Assembly: GCF_001261715.1 (NCBI RefSeq) | Contig: NZ_CVRU01000187.1 | Span: 1 to 46,598 of the forward strand | Source: Dysgonomonas sp. HGC4 | GTDB lineage: Bacteria; Bacteroidota; Bacteroidia; Bacteroidales; Dysgonomonadaceae | Direction of reading: 5' to 3' | DNA length: 46,598 nt | Shown here: piece by piece, positions 1 to 33,845 of the stretch | Layout: every line of letters begins with the position of its first letter | Numbering within the stretch: position 1 is the stretch's first letter | Translations under genes and position numbers: made by a program | The notes under the pieces: model-generated | What the model was told of the DNA's origin: nothing | Database searches by the model: none | What the model saw: the letters and a program-made list of their open reading frames with translations, nothing else

Positions 1-128
1 AGATATAAATACCCCTAAACGAGTAGAGATATTTTTTTTATAAAATGATAATTATTGAATGGTATACTTTCAAATCGCAACAAACTATTGCCGTTGTACT
101 CACTAAAGTAATTGATAAGTCTGAGACC

Positions 129-728
129 TTATTTACTTAAAAACATGTATCCATGATGAAGAATAAGTGTGGTTAATAAAGGCAGTGCACTATTAGGACG
201 GTTATAATGCTTGAGGATATATTCCCTTGTCTTTTTTATAGCTATCGACATTTGAGCCTCAACTGTTTTCACAGAAAGGTCTTTTTCTTCGGCTATTTCC
301 TTATATGTTTTATTGAGTTCGCGGCTCAACAGAAATATTTCCTGACATTTGGGTGGTAAATCTTTAATGGCTTGTTGATAGACCAAACTAAATTCTTCCA
401 TATTCACACAGTCTTCCGACTTTTGTTTCTCAATCTCTCTATTTGCCCATTCCTCTATCAATACCGATCTGTTTTGCTCATCCCTCAGATGATTCAACAT
501 TCTGTTTCTTGCAGCATTATAGAGGTATGTTTTGATGAAGAATATATTTACGTTTTCTCTGTCTTCCCATAGTTTTATGAAAATATCCTGAATAATGTCT
601 TCTATCAAAAACTGATCATGAGTATAATAATTCAAAAATGTACAAACATCCTTGAAGTATAAATCGAAGAACTCTTTTAGTGTAGTTTCATCAATTACAA
701 TTTTATTATGCTCTAATGATTTTACCAT
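129..728 (-). CDS. RNA polymerase ECF sigma-70 factor
   Basis: This 199-residue protein has the layout of a Bacteroidetes extracytoplasmic-function sigma factor. Region 2 lies at roughly residues 20-85 (FDLYFKDVCTFLNYY, then EDIIQDIFIKLWED). Region 4 lies at roughly 120-172 (LPPKCQEIFLLS, then the helix-turn-helix YKEIAEEKDLSVKTVEAQM). It would direct RNA polymerase to a small regulon. In this phylum such factors are usually paired with a FecR-type anti-sigma factor and a TonB receptor. None is visible in the 128 bases left before the window edge, so its target is unknown. It lies downstream of the DtxR gene on the same strand with a 160-bp gap and appears to have its own promoter. The family call is secure; the role is not. 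Confidence 0.93.
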   Translation of the reverse strand: MVKSLEHNKIVIDETTLKEFFDLYFKDVCTFLNYYTHDQFLIEDIIQDIFIKLWEDRENVNIFFIKTYLYNAARNRMLNHLRDEQNRSVLIEEWANREIEKQKSEDCVNMEEFSLVYQQAIKDLPPKCQEIFLLSRELNKTYKEIAEEKDLSVKTVEAQMSIAIKKTREYILKHYNRPNSALPLLTTLILHHGYMFLSK

Positions 729-1601: not shown

Positions 1602-1698
1602 TTTTATTAATCTAACTTTCTAATTTTACAATTCTAATTACAATAGAAAGAGAACAAGAAGAATATTTTTTTGTTTCATAATTACTAAAAGTAATAAA

Positions 1699-1711
1699 AG
1701 GTCTGCGACCT
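1699..1711. repeat. AGGTCT-type palindrome before feoA
   Basis: AGGTC-TGC-GACCT forms a 5-bp stem with a 3-base loop and ends 14 bases before the feoA start codon. It differs at one position from the consensus AGGTCTNAGACCT that recurs between genes of the PUL near 20-32 kb. Its upstream flank AATAAA also resembles the flank of those copies. It could be an operator or a hairpin at the 5' end of the mRNA. Confidence 0.6.
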
Positions 1712-16994: not shown

Positions 16995-17056
16995 ATTATC
17001 TATTCGAAAAATTCTGAGATTAGTTTAAAGATTTTAGGATCAAACCTTTTCCTTAC

Positions 17057-20949: not shown

Positions 20950-20969
20950 ATCTATTTTGAAAAGGATTA

Positions 20970-20982
20970 AGGTCTTAGACCT
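20970..20982. repeat. AGGTCT palindrome, copy between susD and the large GH43 gene
   Basis: AGGTCT-T-AGACCT is an exact match to the palindrome consensus found in this PUL. It lies 12 bases after the SusD stop and 79 bases before the GH43 start, beside the 15-bp hairpin. Unlike the other exact copies its flank is TTTTTG rather than ATTTAT. Confidence 0.75.
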
Positions 20983-20993
20983 TTTTGTATTAC

Positions 20994-22556
20994 TTAATAA
21001 TTGGGGTTCTGCGTCAATTGACCTTCACTATTATCTACTTCTATTTGTGGAATAGGTAGTCTATTGTGTTTACCTATTATAAAATTATTGAAATCTTCGT
21101 CTCGGCTCTTCAGTTCTGCTAATCCAACCTGATTATCCAATAGTCCCCAACGCTTAAGATCGGCCCATCTCCATCCTTCGAAACAAAGTTCAAGAGACCT
21201 TTCCATTTGCAGACGTTTCATAAAGCTTTCTTTCGAATTAAGCGAACTAGCATATATACTGTTGGCTAGTTTAGCTAATCCAACTCTGTTTCTTACTTTG
21301 TCTACATAAACAGCTGCCTGAGTTGTGCTTCCCCCTGTTTCAACAATACATTCGGCATAATTAAGAAGAATATCAGCATAACGCATGATCCGATAGTTAT
21401 TTGGTGCAAAGTAATCTTCTATGGTACGGAAATAAGCAGTATTATATTTGCGGATATAGCACGAAGATCCCCATCCTTTTTCGTCCCACTGGGTAGTTGC
21501 ATTTACCGAATAATACATTGGATTACCGTTCGGGAAATCTTTTATAAAATCACGATAGAGAACGCTATTATATAAACGAAGGTCATTGGCTCCATCTGTT
21601 CTTTTTTCTTTCAGGAACTCATCAACCAACCATCTTCTGGCTTTTCCATCAGCCCAGCCAATACCCTCAGGTGCATAAAATTGGGTACGTTGAAAGCCGG
21701 TTGCCATACTTGCATTATTGCCGGTTCCTCCTTTATTGGTATCATCAAACTGAATCTCGAAAATGCCTTCTTTATTATTTTCATCCAAGTGAGTAAAGTT
21801 ATTTACCCAATTATCTATCAAACCATATAGAGAGCCTTCTTTATTTATCAACCATTCAAACTCGGTCTTTGCCTGATCATACTTTTTTTGTTGTAAATAA
21901 GCCTTGCCTAGTAAAGCCTTTGCCGCACCCATTGTAGCTCTACCAGCATCGGCATCACCCCATTTTTCGGGTAAAGTATTTTCAGTTATTGCAGCTTTTA
22001 AATCAGTTTCTATTTGAGCCCAAATTTGTTCGCCGCTCGATTCTACAGGTACATAATTTGCATCTGTAGGTTCAAGAATAAGAGGTCCTTTTTCCCACAG
22101 AAGATTTACCTGAAAATACCACAATGCTCTCAAGAAATGTGCCTGCCCTAATATCTGAGCTTTTTTATCAGCATCCATGTCAATATTAGGTACATATTTC
22201 AATACTTGGTTACAACGGAAAATAGCCATATAGAAATGTTCCCAATGCATATTATTCCCATCATAAAAATTATAGTTGGTATATGAGAATCGAGTCCAAT
22301 CGGCAAGCTCTATCCAAGGAGAAGAGCTCAGCCCCTCATCCGAAGTAAGATCGTATCTGAATGAAAGCCAACGCATCCACGTACCCTCTTTATAGAAAGC
22401 ACTGTAACAAGCATTTATTCCTGCTTCTGCATCGGAAGCAGTCTTCCAAAAGGTTACCGTAGTACCTTGGTTGGGGTTATCTATATCTAAAAGGCTTGAG
22501 TCGCATGCGGTAAATCCCAGCATGGCTCCGATTAGTAGAATATATATTTTTTTCAT
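20994..22556 (-). CDS. susD: SusD/RagB family surface glycan-binding lipoprotein
   Basis: The 520-residue protein has the lipobox FTAC at Cys18 and the usual SusD start (DSSLLDIDNPNQGTTVTFWK). Helical TPR-like segments follow (AQILGQAHFLRALWYF, AAKALLGKAYLQQKKYDQA). The C-terminal signature is present as YADILLNYAECIVE and LCFEGWRWADLKRWG. SusD proteins bind glycan fragments at the cell surface and form a lid on the SusC channel. The gene follows susC with a 79-bp gap carrying an AGGTCT palindrome. The specific ligand cannot be deduced from the sequence; neighbouring GH43 genes point to an arabinose-containing glycan. Confidence 0.96.
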   Translation of the reverse strand: MKKIYILLIGAMLGFTACDSSLLDIDNPNQGTTVTFWKTASDAEAGINACYSAFYKEGTWMRWLSFRYDLTSDEGLSSSPWIELADWTRFSYTNYNFYDGNNMHWEHFYMAIFRCNQVLKYVPNIDMDADKKAQILGQAHFLRALWYFQVNLLWEKGPLILEPTDANYVPVESSGEQIWAQIETDLKAAITENTLPEKWGDADAGRATMGAAKALLGKAYLQQKKYDQAKTEFEWLINKEGSLYGLIDNWVNNFTHLDENNKEGIFEIQFDDTNKGGTGNNASMATGFQRTQFYAPEGIGWADGKARRWLVDEFLKEKRTDGANDLRLYNSVLYRDFIKDFPNGNPMYYSVNATTQWDEKGWGSSCYIRKYNTAYFRTIEDYFAPNNYRIMRYADILLNYAECIVETGGSTTQAAVYVDKVRNRVGLAKLANSIYASSLNSKESFMKRLQMERSLELCFEGWRWADLKRWGLLDNQVGLAELKSRDEDFNNFIIGKHNRLPIPQIEVDNSEGQLTQNPNY

Positions 22557-22573
22557 CTTATTATTAATTTATA

Positions 22574-22586
22574 AGGTCTTAGACCT
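22574..22586. repeat. AGGTCT palindrome before susD
   Basis: AGGTCT-T-AGACCT lies 17 bases upstream of the SusD start codon, in the short gap after susC. In gene orientation it is preceded by AATAAAT, as are the copies before susC and the 671-residue gene. Confidence 0.8.
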
Positions 22587-22635
22587 ATTTATTGTTTTGA
22601 TGTAGGATAAATCAGCAAGTATTCAATTATTTTTC

Positions 22636-25626
22636 TTAAAATGTAAGATCTAAACCAAACATAACCGATCCCATATTGGGGAATGCAAAATTGTCGGTTC
22701 CTCTATCCCATACATCATTGTTTATAAATTGAGGATCTAATCCGCTATATTTAGTAAAGGTTATCAGATTATTTCCTGTTGCATATACTCTAAGAGCTTC
22801 AATCCCCAAGTTCCTTATAAACTTCTTATCGAAAGTGTATCCAAATTGGATGTATTGCGAACGAAAAAACGAACCGTTTTCCAAATATCTATCGCTATCA
22901 TAGGCATTACGAGCATCTCCATAAATAATGCGTGGAGTATTCGAATTTGGGTTTATTTGATAAGGTTCTTGTCCTTTTTTGAAATTCAAGTAGCTCGAAT
23001 TATCTGCAAAATAAGTTCCCTGCCATTTGGTTACATTATATATATCATTTCCAAATTGACCATACCACATCATCGAAAAGTCGAAGTTTTTCCAGCTACC
23101 CGTAAAGGTCAGAGCCAATTGTGCTTTTGCCCATGGATTTCCAACTATCTGACGGTCATTAGCAGTGATAGAACCACTGTCATCGGTATCTATATAAATA
23201 ACATCACCTAGTTGAGGTCTTTTGTCACCGATAAGAATAGGTGTTCCATTTGATGTTACATAATTATCTATTTGTTCTTGCGTTCTGAAAATACCCGCAG
23301 TTTTATACAAATAATACATAGATAAGGGCTGTCCTATCTCCGATTTAGTTTTTCCCGAATAGTATACATCTTTACCATAGCCCAAGTCTAATACCTTATT
23401 GTTAAGTGTAGTTAAGTTGGCTACTATTCCATAGTTGAAGTCTCCTATTTTATCTTTCCAGTTTGCAGTAAACTCAAAGCCTCTGTTTCTCAAACTTGCA
23501 GCATTAGCCAAAGGTGCACCTTCTTGATTACCTGTTGATATAGCAATAGGCATTGTAGTTAATACATCTCTCGATATAGCATTATAATACTCGGCACTTG
23601 CTGTTAAACGTTGATCTAAGAAAGCAGCATCAAAACCAACATTCACAGTTTCTTTGGTTTCCCATTTCAAGTTTGAGTTAACAATCTTAACCTGAGATGC
23701 TCCCGAAACCAATTGTCCGCCAATTACGGTAACCATACTTTGGTTGATTGTACCTAAATAATCCCAGCTACCAATAGCGGCATTACCCAGACGACCCCAG
23801 TTTCCACGAAGTTTCAAATCTTCAATCCATGACACATTGAAAAATTTCTCCTGAGATATTCTCCAAGCTCCCGATATAGATGGGAAATTTCCCCAACGAT
23901 TTTCTTTCGACAAACGAGATGTACCATCTCTACGCATTGTTCCTGTTAGATAATACTTATTATCGTAATTGTAATTGAATCTTCCCAGATAGGAAATCAT
24001 CGAATTTTGTTGAATACTGTTGAAATTCTGTTGATTACTTTGTCCTGCATCCAATACAGTTAAGTAACCCCCTCCCACCATTGGAAAGTTAAGACGCGAA
24101 CCTCCTACTGTTTCCCATTTATAAGTTTGGTAAGTAAGACCTGCTAATGCATCAATATGGTGTTTTCCGAAATCCTTATTGAAGTTTAATGTATGCTCTA
24201 AAAGTCTGTTATAGGTATTAGCTCTTTCTTTAAGACCTTCTGGATCGCGGTGTTCCTGATTTCTCTGCCAGTTACCTTCTCCTCTGAACCATGATTTCTC
24301 CCAGAAATAATAGTCGATACCAGCATTCAACTTATAAGACAGGTAAGGTAATGGTTTAAATTCGAACCAAGCTGCACCATTAAGTCTATGTTGAATTTCT
24401 CTCTGACGCTCCAAAGTTTCGCGAGCTATCGGATTCACTCCAAATGTATTGGCATTTGCATCTCCATATCCAAATCCTCCGGGGTTGTTTGCATCATACA
24501 CAGGAATGGTAGGAAGCATTCTCATCACATCGTTATAAGGATTGGTTTGCAAAGGGTCTTTATCTGTAGCCGAGAATGCAAGGCTTTGTCCGAAAGAGAA
24601 AACACCTTTCTTTCCATCGGTATTCACCCTGAAACTATATCTGTCGAAATCGTTTCCGAACGAAACTCCTTTATGATTAAAGTAACCTCCTGAAACAAAA
24701 TAGCCTCCATGTTCACCACCTCCCGATAACGATACATTATAGTCTTGAATAACGCCCGTTCTGAACACTGCATCCTGCCAGTTGGTATCATAATCTGAAT
24801 GTTGTTGTAAACCACCTTTCCAACTACCGTTAGCAATTCCTTCGGTATATGCCAAATCATTGTATTTTTTATAATTAGCAGCATCCATTAAGTCGTAACG
24901 AGGAGTCCATTCCATAGTTGCTTTAGCGTTCACGCTAACTTTCATCGGCCCCGATCTTCCTTTCTTTGTAGTTACTATAATTACACCATTGGCTGCACGC
25001 GAACCGTAAATGGCTGCCGAAGAAGCATCTTTCAAGACTTGAATAGTCTCAATATCCGATGGATTAAAGTCTATTCCCGGATTCATAATCATACCATCCA
25101 CAATCCAAAGCGGACTACGATCGCTAAGTGTACCCACTCCTCGAATCTCTATTGAAGCATCTTCACCTGCTCTACCGCTACTACGGACATTTACCCCCGT
25201 AGCCAGTCCTTGCATCTGAGTAGCAATAGTTCCGGCTGCACTTTTTCTCATTTCCTTAGTATCTACTACGGAAACTGCTCCGGTGAGGTCTGCCTTTCGG
25301 ATTGTTTGATATCCAATTACGACTACTTCATCTAAGTCTGCCGCATTTTCTTTGAGAGTAATATTGAGAGGCGTACCATTGTAAACTGCCTCTTGAGTAG
25401 TAAGACCTAGAAAAGAAAAGACCAAGGTTTGTCCTCTTTCTCCTGAGAGACTGAACTTTCCGTCGATGTCTGTAACCGTTCCGGTCGTGGTTCCTTTAAT
25501 TTTCACATATACGCCGATGAGTGGATTGCTTTCTACGTCTACCACCTTTCCGGTAATGTTTACATTCTGAGCACAAACGGCTAGTGTAAACATACTTAGC
25601 ATAAGAATTAATAATTTTTTCATCAT
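22636..25626 (-). CDS. susC: SusC/RagA family TonB-dependent outer-membrane transporter
   Basis: This 996-residue transporter has a signal peptide (ending near VCAQ), a carboxypeptidase-regulatory-like domain (ITGKVVDVESNPLIGVYV to about residue 95), and a TonB-box region (DEVVVIGYQTIRKADLTGAV). The plug domain contains IRGVGTLSDRSPLWIVDG and VLKDASSAAIYGSRAANGV. A 22-strand-type barrel fills the rest and ends in VMFGLDLTF, a C-terminal aromatic typical of outer-membrane proteins. It imports oligosaccharides captured by SusD using TonB-coupled energy. It lies between the GH2 gene and susD. Length is normal and no break is seen. Confidence 0.97.
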   Translation of the reverse strand: MMKKLLILMLSMFTLAVCAQNVNITGKVVDVESNPLIGVYVKIKGTTTGTVTDIDGKFSLSGERGQTLVFSFLGLTTQEAVYNGTPLNITLKENAADLDEVVVIGYQTIRKADLTGAVSVVDTKEMRKSAAGTIATQMQGLATGVNVRSSGRAGEDASIEIRGVGTLSDRSPLWIVDGMIMNPGIDFNPSDIETIQVLKDASSAAIYGSRAANGVIIVTTKKGRSGPMKVSVNAKATMEWTPRYDLMDAANYKKYNDLAYTEGIANGSWKGGLQQHSDYDTNWQDAVFRTGVIQDYNVSLSGGGEHGGYFVSGGYFNHKGVSFGNDFDRYSFRVNTDGKKGVFSFGQSLAFSATDKDPLQTNPYNDVMRMLPTIPVYDANNPGGFGYGDANANTFGVNPIARETLERQREIQHRLNGAAWFEFKPLPYLSYKLNAGIDYYFWEKSWFRGEGNWQRNQEHRDPEGLKERANTYNRLLEHTLNFNKDFGKHHIDALAGLTYQTYKWETVGGSRLNFPMVGGGYLTVLDAGQSNQQNFNSIQQNSMISYLGRFNYNYDNKYYLTGTMRRDGTSRLSKENRWGNFPSISGAWRISQEKFFNVSWIEDLKLRGNWGRLGNAAIGSWDYLGTINQSMVTVIGGQLVSGASQVKIVNSNLKWETKETVNVGFDAAFLDQRLTASAEYYNAISRDVLTTMPIAISTGNQEGAPLANAASLRNRGFEFTANWKDKIGDFNYGIVANLTTLNNKVLDLGYGKDVYYSGKTKSEIGQPLSMYYLYKTAGIFRTQEQIDNYVTSNGTPILIGDKRPQLGDVIYIDTDDSGSITANDRQIVGNPWAKAQLALTFTGSWKNFDFSMMWYGQFGNDIYNVTKWQGTYFADNSSYLNFKKGQEPYQINPNSNTPRIIYGDARNAYDSDRYLENGSFFRSQYIQFGYTFDKKFIRNLGIEALRVYATGNNLITFTKYSGLDPQFINNDVWDRGTDNFAFPNMGSVMFGLDLTF

Positions 25627-25717
25627 CTGAATTAGATTTTATTAGATAAACAAAGGGTCTATACTGCCCAAATTACATGGGTAGTAAAGCATTATTAAAA
25701 TATAGAGATTAAGATTA

Positions 25718-25730
25718 AGGTCTCAGACCT
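25718..25730. repeat. AGGTCT palindrome before susC
   Basis: AGGTCT-C-AGACCT lies 91 bases upstream of the SusC start in the 200-bp gap after the GH2 gene. In gene orientation it is preceded by CCAATAAAT. I see no clear TAnnTTTG element in this gap. Confidence 0.8.
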
Positions 25731-25766
25731 ATTTATTGGTCCCACTGAACGTTATTTGTTCATTCT

Positions 25767-25795
25767 AGTTGTAATAACTTCGGACTGTTACAACT
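25767..25795. terminator. Intercistronic hairpin after the GH2 gene
   Basis: AGTTGTAA (25767-25774) and TTACAACT (25788-25795) are perfect reverse complements with a 13-base loop. It starts 31 bases after the GH2 stop on the minus strand. No T-tract follows, so it is probably an attenuating or stabilising hairpin within the operon rather than a full terminator. Confidence 0.5.
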
Positions 25796-25826
25796 TTGAA
25801 ATACCACATTACCAACTTTCAGCTAC

Positions 25827-27635
25827 TTACTTGTTTAAAGAATTACATATTTCTTGGTTAACTTTTCGGGTGCGAGCTTCGTCTAATTTAATAACCTCAC
25901 GGTCATAGGTCATCAGTCCGTTTACTTCACCTTCAACATCCGTAGTCTGAGTATAAACAGCAGCAGAAAATCCTGCTTTTATCAATTTTTTCAGTACTTC
26001 GGCATACTTTACATATTCGTCGGTAACTTCTTTCGAATTCTTGAATTGCACATATCCCCAGTTTTTGTCGGGCTGCCACAAGTGACCTTCGAGAGGAAGC
26101 CCAATACCACCATATTCACCTAACACCGTTGGTCTTTCGGCATCGTATAAATAAAGTTCGGGTCCCGGATAATTATGCAAATCAAGCATATCGCCTGTGC
26201 GGTAGTGATTACCTCCACTTGCAGGATTTACCAAACGCGATGGATCGTATTTTTTAGTCCATTCGGCAGTTTCAACTGTTTTGAATTGTCCCCAAGCTTC
26301 ATTAAACGGAACCCATGTTACGATAGACGGATATGAAATAAGATAGTCTACAATGTCTTTCCATTCTTTATAGTAGTTTGCTTCTGATTCGCCCGAACGA
26401 ATTAGTTCACTACCATTAAAGTACTGACGGTTTTGCCATTGTGGAGACTTATCTCCATTAGGCATATCCTGCCAAACGAGTATTCCTAATCGGTCGCAAT
26501 GTGTGTACCAGCGAGCAGGTTCTACTTTCACGTGCTTACGAATCATATTGAACCCAAAGTCTTTGGTCTTTTGAATATCATATACCAAAGCCTCATCTGT
26601 GGGAGCGGTATATAATCCGTCGGGCCACCAACCTTGATCGAGAGGACCAAATTGAAAATAGTCTTTATTGTTCAACTGCATGCGTACAATTCCATGATCG
26701 TCTCTTTTACTCGAAATCTTACGCATAGCCGCATAGCTATTTACCTTATCTACCAGTTTACCATTGTTATACAAGTTAACTTCGAGGTTGTATAAGAAAG
26801 GAGATTCGGGCGACCATAATTTCATATCAGTAATAGGAATATTCAATTGCTGACCTACTGCTCCTTTTGCTTTTGCTACAATAGATGAACCGTCTTTTAC
26901 TACAACCTCTATAATATCGGCAGATGTAGTTTTTTGGGTAGACACATCTATTGATAGTTTCTTAGTATCAATATTAGGAATCGTCTTTATTGAAGCTATA
27001 TGTTGTGCATTAACCGGCTCTAACCAAACAGTTTGCCAAATGCCCGAAACGGGAGTGTACCAGATACCTTCGGGTTTGGAATTTTGTTTACCTACCGGCT
27101 GGAAACTATCGGTAGTAGGATCCCATACTTTCACTACTAATTTCTGATTTCCATCTGAAAGAAAAGGAGTTATATCAAACGAGAAAGGGGTATAACCACC
27201 GGTATGGCTACCTATTTTAATGTCATTGAGGTAAACTTCTGTTTTCCAATCTACTGCTCCAAAATGTAACAAGATGGTTTTGTTTTTCCAATTCGCAGGA
27301 ACGTTAAACGAACGTTTATACCACAGTTCGTTATCTTTTCCAAGTTCTTTTTGAACTCCCGAAAGGCTTGATTCGACTGCAAATGGCACAAGTATTTTGC
27401 CATCGTATTTTTGAGGTTCATTCTGTCCATTGGGTAATATTGCATACTCCCACAATCCATTGAGGTTTGTCCATTCCGAACGTTCCATTATCGGACGAGG
27501 GTATTCAGGCAATACATTATTTACATCGATGGTCTGCGCCCACTTCGTCTTTATTTTATCTCCCATCGGTTTCCACTGTGCAAACAACCCGATGCAAGAT
27601 ATCATCATTGAGAATAATAAAAAGTTTCTTTTCAT
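25827..27635 (-). CDS. Glycoside hydrolase family 2 enzyme
   Basis: The likely start is ATG 27635, giving 602 residues and a signal peptide (MKRNFLLFSMMISCIGLFAQ). A longer frame to 27689 only adds residues before that signal. The N-terminal sugar-binding domain (PIMERSEWTNLNGLWEY, ELWYKRSFNVPANW) and immunoglobulin-like domain precede a TIM barrel. Its landmarks are NMIRKHVKVEPARWY, GILVWQDMP, the acid/base Glu446 in FNEAWG and the nucleophile Glu507 in LGEYGG. GH2 enzymes include beta-galactosidases, beta-glucuronidases and related enzymes; I cannot choose between them. No lipobox is present, so a periplasmic location is likely. A partly degenerate AGGTCT palindrome lies 21 bases upstream. 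Confidence 0.92.
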   Translation of the reverse strand: MKRNFLLFSMMISCIGLFAQWKPMGDKIKTKWAQTIDVNNVLPEYPRPIMERSEWTNLNGLWEYAILPNGQNEPQKYDGKILVPFAVESSLSGVQKELGKDNELWYKRSFNVPANWKNKTILLHFGAVDWKTEVYLNDIKIGSHTGGYTPFSFDITPFLSDGNQKLVVKVWDPTTDSFQPVGKQNSKPEGIWYTPVSGIWQTVWLEPVNAQHIASIKTIPNIDTKKLSIDVSTQKTTSADIIEVVVKDGSSIVAKAKGAVGQQLNIPITDMKLWSPESPFLYNLEVNLYNNGKLVDKVNSYAAMRKISSKRDDHGIVRMQLNNKDYFQFGPLDQGWWPDGLYTAPTDEALVYDIQKTKDFGFNMIRKHVKVEPARWYTHCDRLGILVWQDMPNGDKSPQWQNRQYFNGSELIRSGESEANYYKEWKDIVDYLISYPSIVTWVPFNEAWGQFKTVETAEWTKKYDPSRLVNPASGGNHYRTGDMLDLHNYPGPELYLYDAERPTVLGEYGGIGLPLEGHLWQPDKNWGYVQFKNSKEVTDEYVKYAEVLKKLIKAGFSAAVYTQTTDVEGEVNGLMTYDREVIKLDEARTRKVNQEICNSLNK

Positions 27636-27655
27636 GGTTATCGTATTTCTGGTTA

Positions 27656-27668
27656 AGGATTCAGACCT
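27656..27668. repeat. Degenerate AGGTCT palindrome before the GH2 gene
   Basis: AGGATTCAGACCT matches AGGTCTCAGACCT at 11 of 13 positions and lies 20 bases upstream of the GH2 start. The right half and its ATTTA flank are intact; the left half has two changes that break the symmetry. Confidence 0.55.
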
Positions 27669-27759
27669 ATTTAATCTTTTGCGAAGCATAACAACCTAAA
27701 GCTGATATAACCATACAACAGATGATAAAGTCCTTTTTTACTCACTATTTATTTCACAG

Positions 27760-28902
27760 TTACTTTTGTACTGAGAATTTATAAATACATGTTTGGATAT
27801 ATGTTTCTCCCGGATTTAAACGTGTTGTTGGGAAATTAGCATGATTAGGACTATCAGGGAAATGTTGCGTTTCGAGAGCAAAGGCTTCTCTATATTTCAA
27901 CGGCTTGTCAGTTTTTCCCGCGACTTTTCCATCAAAAAAGTTACCGCTATAAAATTGCAATCCGGGTTGATCTGTCCACACTTCCATCTTTCTTCCACTT
28001 GCAGGCTCATAAATAGAAGCTACTAGCTCTACATCCTTATCTGTTTTTCGGTCTATAACCCAATTATGATCGTAACCCGCACCGTTTTTCAATTGCTCAT
28101 TCTCAACATCTATTCTTTCGCCAATAGAAGTCGGTTTTCTAAAGTCAAAAGGAGTACCCTCTACACTTGCTATTTCTCCTGATGGAATTAATACACTATC
28201 AACGGGAGTTGTATTACTTGCATTGATCGTTAGGATATGATCTGTAATAGCTCCGTTTCCTTCTCCTTTCAGATTGAAAAGTCCGTGATGCGACAAGTTT
28301 ATTACCGTCGCTTTATCCGTAGTGGCAGCGTAGGTAATTTTGAATTCATTTTCGGGAGTAAGAGCATAAGTCAAATCTATTTTCATAGTTCCCGGAAAAC
28401 CTTCTTCACCATCGGGCGAAACATACGACAGATGTATTTCGTTGTCAGTCACCTTATCAACATTCCAAACAACCATGTCAAGACCTTTTAAACCTCCATG
28501 TAATGTTTGACCATTGTTATTGATAGGTAGCTGATAGGTAGTTCCATCCAATTCGAATTGCCCCTTAGCTATACGATTTGCATAACGACCAACAATCGGT
28601 CCTAAAAAACGCTCGCCTTTATTATTGATATATCTGTCGATACTATCATAGCCCAGTACAATGTCTTCATATTTTCCATTTTTATCGGGAACCCAAAGCG
28701 CAACCACTCTAGCACCTAAATTGGTAACTTGCATAGTTAATCCGCTTGCCGATTTTAAGGTATATAGATCAACAGCTTTGCCATCTACCTCTGTTTTGAA
28801 TGCAGATTCGTTCAATAGCGGTAGTTCTTTATTGGGGTGTTTATTACATGAGAATAAACATATTAATAAGCTTAGATAAATAAATGTTTTCATATTTTTC
28901 AT
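27760..28902 (-). CDS. galM: Aldose 1-epimerase (mutarotase) lipoprotein
   Basis: The 380-residue protein is a GalM-family mutarotase with a lipobox (LFSC, Cys19). It interconverts the alpha and beta anomers of free aldoses such as galactose, arabinose or xylose. Landmarks are TNLGARVVALWVPDKNGKY, LGPIVGRYANRIAKGQF, the catalytic His in GQTLHGG, NLSHHGLFNL and the catalytic Glu region FALETQHFPDSPN. Its start overlaps the stop of the upstream GH43 gene by 4 bases (ATGA). Export as a lipoprotein fits action on sugars released by the neighbouring hydrolases. A second in-frame ATG at 28893 would still leave the signal peptide intact. Confidence 0.95.
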   Translation of the reverse strand: MKNMKTFIYLSLLICLFSCNKHPNKELPLLNESAFKTEVDGKAVDLYTLKSASGLTMQVTNLGARVVALWVPDKNGKYEDIVLGYDSIDRYINNKGERFLGPIVGRYANRIAKGQFELDGTTYQLPINNNGQTLHGGLKGLDMVVWNVDKVTDNEIHLSYVSPDGEEGFPGTMKIDLTYALTPENEFKITYAATTDKATVINLSHHGLFNLKGEGNGAITDHILTINASNTTPVDSVLIPSGEIASVEGTPFDFRKPTSIGERIDVENEQLKNGAGYDHNWVIDRKTDKDVELVASIYEPASGRKMEVWTDQPGLQFYSGNFFDGKVAGKTDKPLKYREAFALETQHFPDSPNHANFPTTRLNPGETYIQTCIYKFSVQK

Positions 28903-29912
28903 TGTTGAATTTCAAACATAGGTTTCGGAGCAGATAATGAAGGACTTCCGTTTTCCACATAAGGCCAGTTATTATTATCCCACTTTATTTGGTCAAGCAA
29001 CAATACCCTACCCTGCGGATTTTTCACATCCACCCCATGATAAAATATCCAATCGTTGCCAATCTCGTCTTGTACTATTTCGGAACAGTGACCGTTTCCT
29101 ACAAAGCGGCTGTTACTATTGATTACTATATTATATCCGTTATCGACCATACTCTTTCCATCCTTATCTACATAAGGTCCCATAAGTGATTCCGATCGTC
29201 CAACAACCAATTTATAAGTGCTGTTAACGCCTTCGCAACAAGTACCGATGGATGCAAACAGATAATAGTAATTACCCTTTTTATATATATAAGTACCTTC
29301 AAAGGCCGTTCCTGCAATGTATTTCTTTTCAGCACCTTCTTTTACAGTAAGCCCATCATTGCTTAATTCTATACCATAGATACCTCTGAAACTACCCCAA
29401 AACAGGTATTTCTTTCCGCTATCTTCGATATAAAAAGGGTCGATTGAATTTGTCACCCCTATTTCATTACTTCTAAAAAGCTTTCCCTTATCGGTAAAAT
29501 GTCCTGCGGGACTATCGGCAACTGCCACTCCAATTCCACAGGTTTCTTCGCCTCCCCAAACTGACATCGAATAATAAAGGACATACTTACCATCTATGTA
29601 ATTAATATCGGGAGCCCAAAGTCCTCCTTTAGGTTCAAAATCGGGACGGCTACTGTCAGTGAAAACTGTTCCTACAAAACTCCACGCAATTAGATCCTTC
29701 GATTTATAAATTGGCATATTACGTACATCTTCTGTTGCATAGAGGTAGAAATAACCATCGGCAGCTTTAATTATTGTAGGATCGGGCAAACTCCTTGCAA
29801 TCACTGGATTCGAATATGTAGTTATTTCGGGTGCAGGAGGCGAATCATTATTGTTCGATGAACACGCCGCCAAACAAACCAATGTAAACAGATATAAAAG
29901 AGTTTTTCTCAT
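28899..29912 (-). CDS. GH43_5-like arabinan endo-alpha-L-arabinanase lipoprotein
   Basis: From ATG 29912 the protein has 337 residues and a clean lipoprotein signal (MRKTLLYLFTLVCLAAC, Cys17); a longer frame to 29963 is unlikely. Residues 36-330 form a GH43 propeller. Catalytic residues are Asp44 (LPDPT), Asp158 (SIDPFY) and Glu205 (FEGTY). The stretch with CCEGVNSTYKLVVGRSES and GPYVDKDGKSM is characteristic of endo-1,5-alpha-L-arabinanases and related GH43 members, which cut the arabinan backbone. The gene is translationally coupled to galM and lies downstream of the 671-residue unknown gene. It is the best single clue that arabinan or arabinose oligosaccharides are the target. Confidence 0.88.
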   Translation of the reverse strand: MRKTLLYLFTLVCLAACSSNNNDSPPAPEITTYSNPVIARSLPDPTIIKAADGYFYLYATEDVRNMPIYKSKDLIAWSFVGTVFTDSSRPDFEPKGGLWAPDINYIDGKYVLYYSMSVWGGEETCGIGVAVADSPAGHFTDKGKLFRSNEIGVTNSIDPFYIEDSGKKYLFWGSFRGIYGIELSNDGLTVKEGAEKKYIAGTAFEGTYIYKKGNYYYLFASIGTCCEGVNSTYKLVVGRSESLMGPYVDKDGKSMVDNGYNIVINSNSRFVGNGHCSEIVQDEIGNDWIFYHGVDVKNPQGRVLLLDQIKWDNNNWPYVENGSPSLSAPKPMFEIQQ

Positions 29913-30015
29913 AATATTAAGGAATTGAACGTATTTAATAATATATTCTATAAATATAATCACCTCTAATACTCACTCTTACCAAGTGTAATAGATAGCT
30001 TTGCGATCTTAAACC

Positions 30016-32031
30016 TTATTTCTTCTTGTAATTAAAGTAATTTTCCACTCGATCAGGGCTTAGCATTTGCCATAGCGATGCAACTGTCCAGCCCGGAGCA
30101 AAAATATCATTGTAGAAGCCTTTTCCGTTTTTACCATAATCCCAATTTGTATGCTGTACAACTTCAGGATAATAACCAACTTTAGCTATATCGAACATAT
30201 GTCCTTTAACGGGCATCAATTGAAGCATAGAACTTTTGATGATAGACGAAAATTCAGAAAAACGAGGTTCGTTACGTTCTTTAGCCAACCAATCAAGAAC
30301 GGTTGCAAATTCAAAGATAAATACATCAATGTGGTTATTTTCGACTGAAACATTCCCCCAACCTCTCGATTTAAAGTTTACATCGCCCAACATTTGACCT
30401 TGTGCAAAAGGCACATCCCACATATAATACCACGAAAGGCTGAAATAAGCAGCTTGCTTGCTTAGGTCAATATAATGTTGCTGCTCTTTTCCTTTGGACA
30501 CCATTGCCAGATAATACATAGCAGTAGAAGCATATAAAGAAGCTTCTTTATCTTCGCAGTTGGCATCTAGGGTTGATGAAAAATAATCGGCTTTAGAGAC
30601 AAGTTCTTTCTCAAGATAAAGAGCTGTTTTTCTGGCACTTTCTAAATACAACTTATTATTAAAATAGGTATAAGCCATTGTTAATGGTAGAGTTGCCGAG
30701 GGTGTACTACCTCCCGATTCGTCTACTATTTTGAAATTGTCTTCGAATTTACGAGGAAAACTACCATTTACTTCTTGTAATTTGAGAAAATTATTCAGAA
30801 GAGTTTTTATTTTAGCCTCCCATTCTGCATGCTTGCGACCTTTTCTTTTTTCGTATTCAAGATAATTCAGTATTGCAAAGGCTCCTTCGGATTGACGGCG
30901 GATACTGTATATTTTAGTTTCATCATTATGATCATAATCAACAAACTCTCTAAAAAAGCCGGAAGGGGTAAACCCATACTGTAAATAACTATCGAATATC
31001 GAATTTGCTTTTTCTACTAAATCGGGTCTGTTATTTGCTTCACCATACTCTAGAGCATTAAACGCATTCAATAAAACACGACCAACAAAACCAACTTCTA
31101 CCGAACCTGTATTTTTACAATCGTCGGTACGCATGTGTACTCCTGAGAAATATTTCAGATCATATTTATCAACATAACTTTCATGGAAAAAGTTCGAAAG
31201 TATTTCTTTTGCTTCCACTGTCGATAAGTGATCTTTTACTTCCTGAGGTTTTAATGTATCAAATGAATAATCCCAAACGGAAGCTACAAATGTAGAAAAA
31301 TCGGATGCTTTACTTTTTTTGATCTCCCATACTAATTGACGGGTTTCTCCTTTTTCTAATTTATCGAATGCCTGCACAGCTGGAGCTAAAGTCAGTTTAC
31401 GAATATATGTTTTAGGTGCTTCACTATACGGAAATCCAAAAACAAGAGACGATTTTCCGTCTTGATTACGAAACCCTGTAAATCCTAAAGAGGTTTTTCC
31501 TGATAGGATAACTTCCCCTTGACTGTGGCAGGCTAAACTTTCGTTCTTAAAATCATCTAAACGCAATACTGTATAATAAGCTCCCGTTTTTTCGTTGAAT
31601 ATCCCCGTAAGAGGTGTACTCAAACGATCTTCTCTCACCTGCCAGCTATCGCTTGTATAAAACGATGGTGCTTCCTTGGGTGATCTTAAGTTGCGTCTAT
31701 ACCAAAATCCGGGCATATAGAATTGACAATCATCATGATTCATCGTTGTATTATAGCTTTCTTCAAAATTATAATACACTAAATCGTGAGCTTTGATCGT
31801 AATTATCAGCTTCAATACAGAGTCATTTTCGACAGCTTGTTCTTTTATCTCAACTGGTATCTTTTCTGTTGATGTCAACATTCCATTTTGAATTTGCAAT
31901 GGATAAGCTATTGCCGGGTTTCCGGGAGACTTTAATGTTATTTGTCGTACCAAATTATCAGCCATATCAGCTGCATCAATCAATCCGATAGAGGAGATAA
32001 ATAGCGCAATTAGCAAGAGTTTCTTTTTCAT
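30016..32031 (-). CDS. Secreted protein of unknown family, probably an alpha/alpha-toroid glycosidase
   Basis: I do not recognise a named family for this 671-residue protein. A signal peptide (MKKKLLLIALFISSIGLIDA) precedes a beta-rich region to about residue 235, containing QFYMPGFWYRRNLRSP. From about 270 to the end the sequence is helical with repeated aromatic pairs (GRVLLNAFNALEYGEANN, QSEGAFAILNYLEYEKRKG, STAMYYLAMVSKG, AAYFSLSWYYMWDVPFAQG). This beta-sandwich plus (alpha/alpha) toroid plan is common in glycosidases and lyases. Acidic residues such as those in MRTDDCKNTGSVEVG are candidate active-site groups. It lies between two GH43 genes and is preceded by an AGGTCT palindrome, so it belongs to the PUL. 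Function is inferred only from fold impression and context. Confidence 0.55.
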   Translation of the reverse strand: MKKKLLLIALFISSIGLIDAADMADNLVRQITLKSPGNPAIAYPLQIQNGMLTSTEKIPVEIKEQAVENDSVLKLIITIKAHDLVYYNFEESYNTTMNHDDCQFYMPGFWYRRNLRSPKEAPSFYTSDSWQVREDRLSTPLTGIFNEKTGAYYTVLRLDDFKNESLACHSQGEVILSGKTSLGFTGFRNQDGKSSLVFGFPYSEAPKTYIRKLTLAPAVQAFDKLEKGETRQLVWEIKKSKASDFSTFVASVWDYSFDTLKPQEVKDHLSTVEAKEILSNFFHESYVDKYDLKYFSGVHMRTDDCKNTGSVEVGFVGRVLLNAFNALEYGEANNRPDLVEKANSIFDSYLQYGFTPSGFFREFVDYDHNDETKIYSIRRQSEGAFAILNYLEYEKRKGRKHAEWEAKIKTLLNNFLKLQEVNGSFPRKFEDNFKIVDESGGSTPSATLPLTMAYTYFNNKLYLESARKTALYLEKELVSKADYFSSTLDANCEDKEASLYASTAMYYLAMVSKGKEQQHYIDLSKQAAYFSLSWYYMWDVPFAQGQMLGDVNFKSRGWGNVSVENNHIDVFIFEFATVLDWLAKERNEPRFSEFSSIIKSSMLQLMPVKGHMFDIAKVGYYPEVVQHTNWDYGKNGKGFYNDIFAPGWTVASLWQMLSPDRVENYFNYKKK

Positions 32032-32053
32032 GTGTGTATATCTTCTTTTATTG

Positions 32054-32066
32054 AGGTCTCAGACCT
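32054..32066. repeat. AGGTCT palindrome before the 671-residue PUL protein
   Basis: AGGTCT-C-AGACCT lies 22 bases upstream of the start at 32031, after the end of the first GH43 gene. In gene orientation the preceding flank is TTATAAAT, as in the copies before susC and susD. A weaker relative (10 of 13) lies at 30005-30017, just beyond the end of this gene. Confidence 0.8.
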
Positions 32067-32141
32067 ATTTATAATTTTGGTATAGAGATTATCCCATTTC
32101 GGACAGACAAATAGGTATACCCGAACTACCATTTAGTTGTT

Positions 32142-33237: not shown

Positions 33238-33845
33238 TTTTCTCTCTACTAAGGCTATTCTATTGGGTTTTGAGGCTTTGAGATATATTCTGCAACAATT
33301 TGATCATTCAGTGATATTTCTTTAAAATGATTCAGCCGTATTTCCGAACAAAAAAGGGAATGGACTGAGCTTATCCATAATTTATCAGATTTGTAAATTT
33401 CATGGTTGGGAAGTCAATTATAACTCTGAAGATAATATGCATCAGTTTAAAGTTATAGTTTAATCGTACCATCTTATAATAACAGTACTTTAAAAGAATA
33501 AACACCTACTTTATTCTTTAATCTCTTACCCAATTTCTCGGCATAATGCTATGCTTGAACTCTATATAGTATCAGCGAATCTCTCCTTCTTCAATAATAT
33601 CTATCTTATAAAAAACATATGTACTAGAACAATAGAGTCTAACACTCTGTTATAACAAAGCAGTGGTATTAGGGAGTTTGCAGAATAGGCATCGCCACTA
33701 CCCTTATTGAGTAATACCTTCGCTTAAATCCTCATACAAAACACATAATAAATAAAGAAAATCAGTTCGATCAGAATTGACAGATCTGTTAGGTCTGAAA
33801 TTTACATGTTTGCAAAAGCAGAAATACAGAATCAGTTAACACGGT

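Follow-up and report, generated by a model that had tools for sequence, protein, structure and literature searches.

Why does the same short palindrome recur between the genes of a polysaccharide utilization locus (PUL)? The question is raised by a stretch of the Dysgonomonas sp. HGC4 genome (assembly GCF_001261715.1, contig NZ_CVRU01000187.1, positions 1 to 46,598), here called the window, which was analysed over its whole length of 46,598 nucleotides (nt). The original prediction had noted exact copies of a 13-bp palindrome, AGGTCTNAGACCT, at 20970, 22574, 25718 and 32054, a weaker copy at 27656 and a variant at 1699. It had offered three readings, namely an operator, an RNA-level element such as a short mRNA hairpin, which it favoured, and a family of small intergenic repeats. 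The four exact copies all lie where they had been placed, and a pattern scan of the window gives two mismatches for the copy at 27656 and one for that at 1699. Our analysis shows that the palindrome, hereafter the core, is the right-hand end of a small, geneless, directional intergenic element. This element of about 90 nt is very probably a non-autonomous mobile element that resembles a miniature inverted-repeat transposable element (MITE) and inserts at TA; of the three readings, the family of intergenic repeats is thus retained in a mobile form, while the operator and the RNA-level role are not.

Distribution and architecture of the repeat

The core occurs at 122 exact places in the 4.49-Mb HGC4 genome (196 contigs), compared to 0 for a reversed-pattern control, which bears out the earlier claim of repetition beyond chance. 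As the core is a palindrome, the 122 forward and 122 reverse rows of the scan are the same places. The 20-mer made of AATAAAT and the core was found at 143 places in this genome with up to two mismatches, and its control at none; AATAAAT, said to precede most cores, is indeed present on one side of most of them, either as such or as a near variant. Loose relatives of the core in the window are mostly chance, because at up to three mismatches there are 23 matches against 14.5 expected, a number that 1 of 100 shuffles reached.

Among 61 related genomes, 10 carry the exact motif (reversed control 0–4 per genome). These include five of six genomes of the genus with 40–276 places each, the highest number being that of D. 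capnocytophagoides (G005), while G003, which is 62% complete, has none. Outside the genus, four other members of the family have 2–4 places, and one genome of another family (G052) has 44. The motif is repeated genome-wide and is no particular feature of the PUL or its sugar-degradation genes. Among named genomes, the AATAAAT form is found mostly in Dysgonomonas (D. capnocytophagoides, D. alginatilytica, D. macrotermitis and others), next in metagenome-assembled genomes (MAGs) labelled Prevotella, Bacteroidales and Acetofilamentum, and once in each of three unrelated MAGs. The form AGGTCTNAGACCTTA was detected in 13 of 393 Bacteroidales genomes, with 0–2 control matches per genome, and the right end had no match among viral contigs.

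When copies are aligned on the core, a directional block of about 90 nt appears, with a left edge near TAAGTAAC and the consensus TAAGTAACAGnAAGTATTTAATGATATATTTT....TATAAC....TTGTTATACTTACCAAAGTAATAAATAGGTCTGAGACCTTA. The ends of the element read TA|AGTAACAGnAAGTATTTAATG ... AATAAATAGGTCTNAGACCT|TA, and the central base of the core is G in 80% of 167 tabulated copies. A 95-column profile of the element matched 312 places at E<=1 in 138 loci plus the window, of which 168 span both ends, and had 0 matches in reversed sequence; as the loci were picked for motif content, these counts describe the family and give no density. The reading frame before the core contains many stops. A short peptide (...LLYLPK*) was considered, as one frame is most variable at third positions, but was rejected since many copies have in-frame stops. 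Variant cores of the form AGGTCGAAGACCT, following GCGTAAGCAACATTAAA or GCGAAAGCCACATTAAA, occur in the Bacteroidales MAG GMC9 (L125, L101), where the stem is kept and the loop is another.

Filled and empty sites

Two relatives were used for comparison, D. alginatilytica (G002) and a single-contig genome of the genus (G001). For 27 of the 63 mapped D. alginatilytica copies, the flanks are separated by less than 30 nt in the HGC4 genome; in the reverse direction, this applies to 7 of 46 HGC4 copies. Among 26 near-empty comparisons (3 of them against G001), six that were judged by eye (#3, 13, 17, 19, 23 and 44) have TA on both sides when filled and a single TA when empty, some with a base change or a small indel beside the junction. 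In #3, at 132627, the element is nested inside another copy of itself. TTAA was rejected as the target in favour of TA, since it is missing from the empty genome at sites such as G002:C12 113587 (#17) and that of the nested copy.

Any single difference may be a gain or a loss, and these comparisons show that insertions or losses occurred after the split of the window's species and D. alginatilytica. The filled and empty sites, the TA junctions, the nested copy, and the absence of several window copies from relatives carry the interpretation as a MITE-like element. They also speak against both an operator and the favoured RNA-level role, since what is inserted at TA is a block of about 90 nt.

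Candidate transposases

In four other families (G052, G105, G260 and G293), the palindrome is found at the end of elements that are of similar length but differ in body. Their left end reads TAAGYAC....ACAAAAGTTTTT, or a variant of it, in most of the 19 stretches read. In the single stretch read from G195 (L231), the element was not seen around the core. One left end in G052 (contig C266), identical in 25 of 25 bases to that of element L213, stands before a broken transposase gene with a DDE_3 domain. In G105 (contig C335), an inverted copy of such a left end follows an IS630 transposase fragment that falls below curated cut-offs; a copy in G208 is recognised, in its larger piece, as IS630 transposase above the cut-off. 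DDE_3 (PF13358) was detected in 4 of 6 other core-carrying genomes, in 3 of them over the cut-off. Because left ends in G052 and G105 border IS630-type transposases, and none was found in the six Dysgonomonas genomes tested, an IS630 transposase acting in trans appears from sequence to be the best candidate. Such an enzyme would have moved the element in trans, and might since have been lost or have diverged too far to be seen. It would have recognised one end that resembles a terminal repeat and one that is palindromic.

An autonomous partner was also sought in Dysgonomonas. For 161 left-end matches, the right end lies within 140 nt in 132 and at 140–4500 nt in 16. In L130, one of these 16 wide-spaced pairs, inspection of the reading frames revealed no evident transposase-like open reading frame (ORF). 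Ten proteins encoded between inverted ends were scanned, and nine match ordinary families and one matches none. Y1 transposase (PF01797) is absent from the HGC4 genome and from G005 and occurs once each in G001, G002 and G004, i.e., in three of six genus genomes. Y2 transposase (PF04986) was found in 0 of 5 genus genomes and in 1 of 9 overall (G293). This does not support an IS91/Helitron-like element with a 3' hairpin and rolling-circle transposition, which would have a Y2 partner.

Two further observations concern G105. Up to three mismatches, this genome has 123 left-end matches compared to 22 right-end matches. The 22 left ends read in stretches retrieved for this purpose comprise 20 of a sister family with the ending ...ATTCCT|TA, one with ATTGCT|TA, and one that is truncated where its contig stops. 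The sister family (L222, L232–L251) has the same left end, and its ATTCCT|TA is preceded by ATTGTATCATTGAACC-like repeats that vary in number. In addition, a small element is inserted inside the IS630 transposase gene on contig C335 (L256:1–221), as described for RUP.

ISPg1 belongs to the IS5 family, some groups of which duplicate TA. It is conceivable, but unlikely, that the mobile element described here was moved by an IS5-type instead of an IS630-type transposase. The argument for IS5 comes from the BrickBuilt MITE of Porphyromonas gingivalis, an intergenic MITE of the same order. In the portion of PMC4596501 that deals with its ends, these are given as CCGAAAGGTCTC and AAGACCTTTGCA, contain AGGTCT/AGACCT, and are reported to be most like ISPg1/ISPg9. 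However, the shared hexamer is weak and can serve as a lead only, and the evidence from the G052 and G105 left ends favours IS630. By the same source, BrickBuilt also differs in having tandem 23-nt repeats and inverted repeats matched to ISPg1/ISPg9 (PMC4596501).

Placement, stem pairing and alternative explanations

Placement was assessed in 0.71 Mb of contiguous sequence from the HGC4, G002 and G001 genomes, on contigs partly chosen for holding copies. Because gene calls followed a longest-ORF rule, distances to start codons are approximate. Of 138 copies, 110 lie between co-directional genes, 18 in divergent gaps, 5 in convergent gaps, and 5 at edges, compared to 88.9, 34.0 and 10.1 expected from TA sites for the first three classes (p 5e-4). 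In these stretches, none of the copy midpoints lies deeper than 60 nt within a called ORF. Such placement fits selection against insertions at promoters and their tolerance between genes that are co-transcribed. The nearness of many copies to start or stop codons probably reflects insertions that survive only in narrow AT-rich gaps.

It is quite improbable that the core is instead an RNA hairpin maintained by the host to stabilise mRNA or to mark sites of processing between co-transcribed genes. The 110 co-directional copies would suit such a role, as would the conservation of the core across three species, complete at 20970 and nearly complete at 25718. Pattern-selected sites also show a sense excess of 88:43, and the ratio is 37:19 for exact AATAAAT+core sites and 34:27 for other copies of named loci. 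However, co-directional gaps in the contiguous stretches hold 58 sense and 52 antisense copies, so that an orientation bias, for which a test had been proposed earlier, is seen in the selected sites and not in the contiguous sample. The sense excess is weak and partly unexplained. Furthermore, the 27 of 63 D. alginatilytica copies without a counterpart in the close relative do not suggest maintenance by the host.

Stem covariation, suggested by the original prediction as a check, was observed, and it speaks in favour of the hairpin. The query for this test was only the 78 nt before the core, and it found 167 copies, 94 of them with an exact core. Among the 162 copies that have no more than six mismatches, individual stem positions differ in 2–13%, and the two halves are paired in 754 of 810 cells, compared to 738.2 ± 1.8 in shuffles, none of which reached the observed value (0/2000), although relatedness among copies can inflate this test. 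Double, compensatory changes in the stem include AGGTTTGCAACCT, AGGCATGATGCCT and AGCTCTGAGAGCT. Stem pairing seems to matter, either for transposition or for the host.

A structured RNA comprising the whole element was rejected, as RNAalifold on 94 copies gave the terminal hairpin only and mutual information over 149 copies revealed no stretch of successive paired columns within the body. Seven single folds had z values from -0.8 to -3.2. Rfam 15 had 0 matches at gathering score in the window and no match at E<=1 on the elements of six loci. As a separate observation, a DUF805 RNA (Rfam RF03081, 74 bits) is present at L046:4171–4236 in a MAG labelled Prevotella. In a read-through mRNA, the right end of the mobile element could form a 5-bp hairpin, which may affect neighbouring genes but is not needed to account for the spread of the element.

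Conservation between species was compared for 33 D. alginatilytica copies with an HGC4 counterpart of similar length. We set aside 20 in which the D. alginatilytica core is not exact; among the remaining 13, the core is exact in HGC4 in 8. Mismatches between species number 17/151 in the core and 151/851 in the body. In another comparison, identities are 89.6% for the core, about 82% for the body and 89–93% for the flanks, values that mix coding flanks and non-homologous alignments. Judging from the core kept in three species, host use of some copies, such as those at 20970 and 25718, is possible.

That the core is an operator of a broadly acting transcription regulator, which a 13-bp palindrome lying under 30 nt before the called start at 81 of 162 co-directional sites might suggest, is highly improbable, since divergent gaps are under-used (18 compared to 34.0 expected), what is conserved is a directional stretch of about 90 nt, which is inserted, or lacking, as one unit, the adjoining genes are of unrelated kinds (GldL, carbohydrate kinase, PanB, peroxiredoxin, YqeY and others), and the mismatches show a compensation that an operator need not have.

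Several observations weigh against the mobile element or its link to IS630. Most near-empty comparisons (20/26) are indels, deletions, core remnants or overlapping copies that define no target. In four element types, the two ends are alike in the prefix TAAG only, and shuffles reach the score between the two ends 120, 1316, 1713 and 577 times in 2000, so the ends do not form inverted repeats. The similarity of the Dysgonomonas left end to IS630 ends is weak, with 73 and 19 of 2000 shuffles scoring as high. DDE_3 was found in 0 of 6 genus genomes and has no gene in G260 or G293, both of which carry elements. Nor was any element copy found to carry a transposase, or the right end found on a transposase element. 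The sense excess of the pattern-selected sites belongs here as well, and so do the 6 of 240 sites of an earlier site set that lie inside called ORFs. Finally, the core is kept modestly better than the body between species, which is not decisive.

Comparison with known repeat families

The nearest kind is formed by TA-inserting MITEs linked to IS630, such as RUP, and by the Correia elements; the inverted repeats of these families are not found here. According to the part of PMC2229807 that treats it, RUP of Streptococcus pneumoniae is a MITE linked to IS630-Spn1, about 100 bp long, with about 100 intergenic copies and a TA target. The Dysgonomonas element resembles it in size, copy number, intergenic location, TA target, and in having an IS630 relative as the proposed mobiliser. 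However, RUP is described with matching terminal inverted repeats, whereas here the ends share TAAG only and the right end is a palindrome by itself. No IS630 gene was found in the six genomes of the host genus.

The Correia/NEMIS element of Neisseria is likewise short, intergenic and flanked by TA in the same account (PMC2229807), and its transcripts are able to fold and to serve as RNase III substrates, as stated in the relevant sections of PMC2229807 and PMC10969869. Inverted repeats of 24 bp are present in Correia, whereas in our element self-folding is confined to the right end. The REP/RAYT system, as outlined in the relevant part of PMC3733652, likewise features a short palindrome with more than 100 intergenic copies. 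It differs in that the palindrome is here part of a block of about 90 nt with TA junctions, and that Y1 transposase is absent from the HGC4 and G005 genomes. In searches of the open-access PMC literature, we recognised no paper describing the Dysgonomonas element.

A mobile element would explain a striking motif between Dysgonomonas genes, which might otherwise be mistaken for the mark of a regulon, and would add a large family of mobile repeats to a group of gut symbionts. The natural filled and empty pairs lend themselves to studying how small insertions between co-transcribed PUL genes affect expression. The unequal ends are unusual, and they pose the question of how a single transposase would recognise two ends of which one is a terminal repeat and the other a palindrome. 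More tentatively, and on balance doubtfully, the element might represent an architecture of transposable elements not met in the literature searched, in which an IS630-type terminal repeat is combined with a portable 13-bp palindrome common to unrelated bodies in several Bacteroidales families, pairing is kept by compensation, and some copies, those at 20970 and 25718 in the PUL, are kept by the host as short mRNA hairpins.

Copies in the window

The window holds eight copies of very unequal preservation, scored in an nhmmer profile scan of the window from which the bit scores and E values below are taken. A near full-length copy at 47–131 (plus strand, model positions 10–94; core AAGTCTGAGACCT at 117–129; 41.8 bits, E 6e-12) was absent from the original list. 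The 3' part at 1670–1711 (plus strand, model 51–92; 15.4 bits, E 0.001) has the core AGGTCTGCGACCT at 1699–1711, 14 nt before the first ATG of an ORF at 1726, identified earlier as feoA. The orthologous places of these two copies could not be mapped in the relatives.

The other six copies lie in 20968–32091, where position had been expected to be kept at orthologous PULs. The outcome is mixed: three copies are absent from both relatives, one is absent from G001 only, and in two the core is exact, or almost so, in all three species. The copy at 20968–20994 (minus strand; core 20970–20982; 13.7 bits) consists of the short 3' end only (model 70–94). It is perhaps an internally deleted copy, because the left-end-like sequence TTAAGTAAT stands directly before it. 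At the orthologous place, both G001 and G002 have an exact core, in which the central base differs from genome to genome. The full-length copy at 25716–25829 (minus strand, model 2–94; core 25718–25730; 38.2 bits) has an exact core in G001, one mismatch in G002, and a different body. The 3' part at 32052–32091 (minus strand, model 55–94; core 32054–32066; 26.4 bits) has an exact core in G002 and is lacking in G001.

Both relatives lack the 3' part at 22572–22607 (minus strand, model 59–94; core 22574–22586; 23.7 bits), with messier junctions, and the near full-length copy at 27654–27737 (minus strand, model 11–94; core 27656–27668 with two mismatches; 29.7 bits), whose junctions are not clean. 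Also missing from both, over 29917–30012 and with well-aligned flanks, is the copy at 29918–30011 (plus strand, model 2–94; 23.1 bits, E 4e-6), a decayed full-length copy that corresponds to the weak relative reported at 30005. The other weak relative, at 17036, did not hold up (E 140), and the half-site at 33791 before the AraC gene gave no profile match.

The original prediction had all copies upstream of a gene, usually 14–25 nt before its start, which does not agree with our ORF calls. The distances from core to start are 78 nt at 20970, 17 nt at 22574, 91 nt at 25718, 22 nt at 32054 and 14 nt at 1699. The 20970 core lies 11 nt behind a stop codon, the 27656 core falls within an ORF as called, and the copies at 47–131 and 29918–30011 are antisense to the adjoining ORFs. 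The called starts of ORFs 28899–29963 and 25827–27689 lie inside the copies at 29918–30011 and 27654–27737, respectively; because of this, the real starts are probably further downstream. At another locus (L040, G000:C58), a gene with a GldL_N domain is flanked by copies.

A second repeated hairpin, of the form GTAGGGGCAGACCTATGTGTCTGCCC, has several copies adjoining or inside element copies. These are found at G002:C33 35885–35979, the ortholog of the window copy at 25716–25829, and at about 32090–32130 in the window. Further sites lie upstream of 5988 in L080 and upstream of 1885 in L115.

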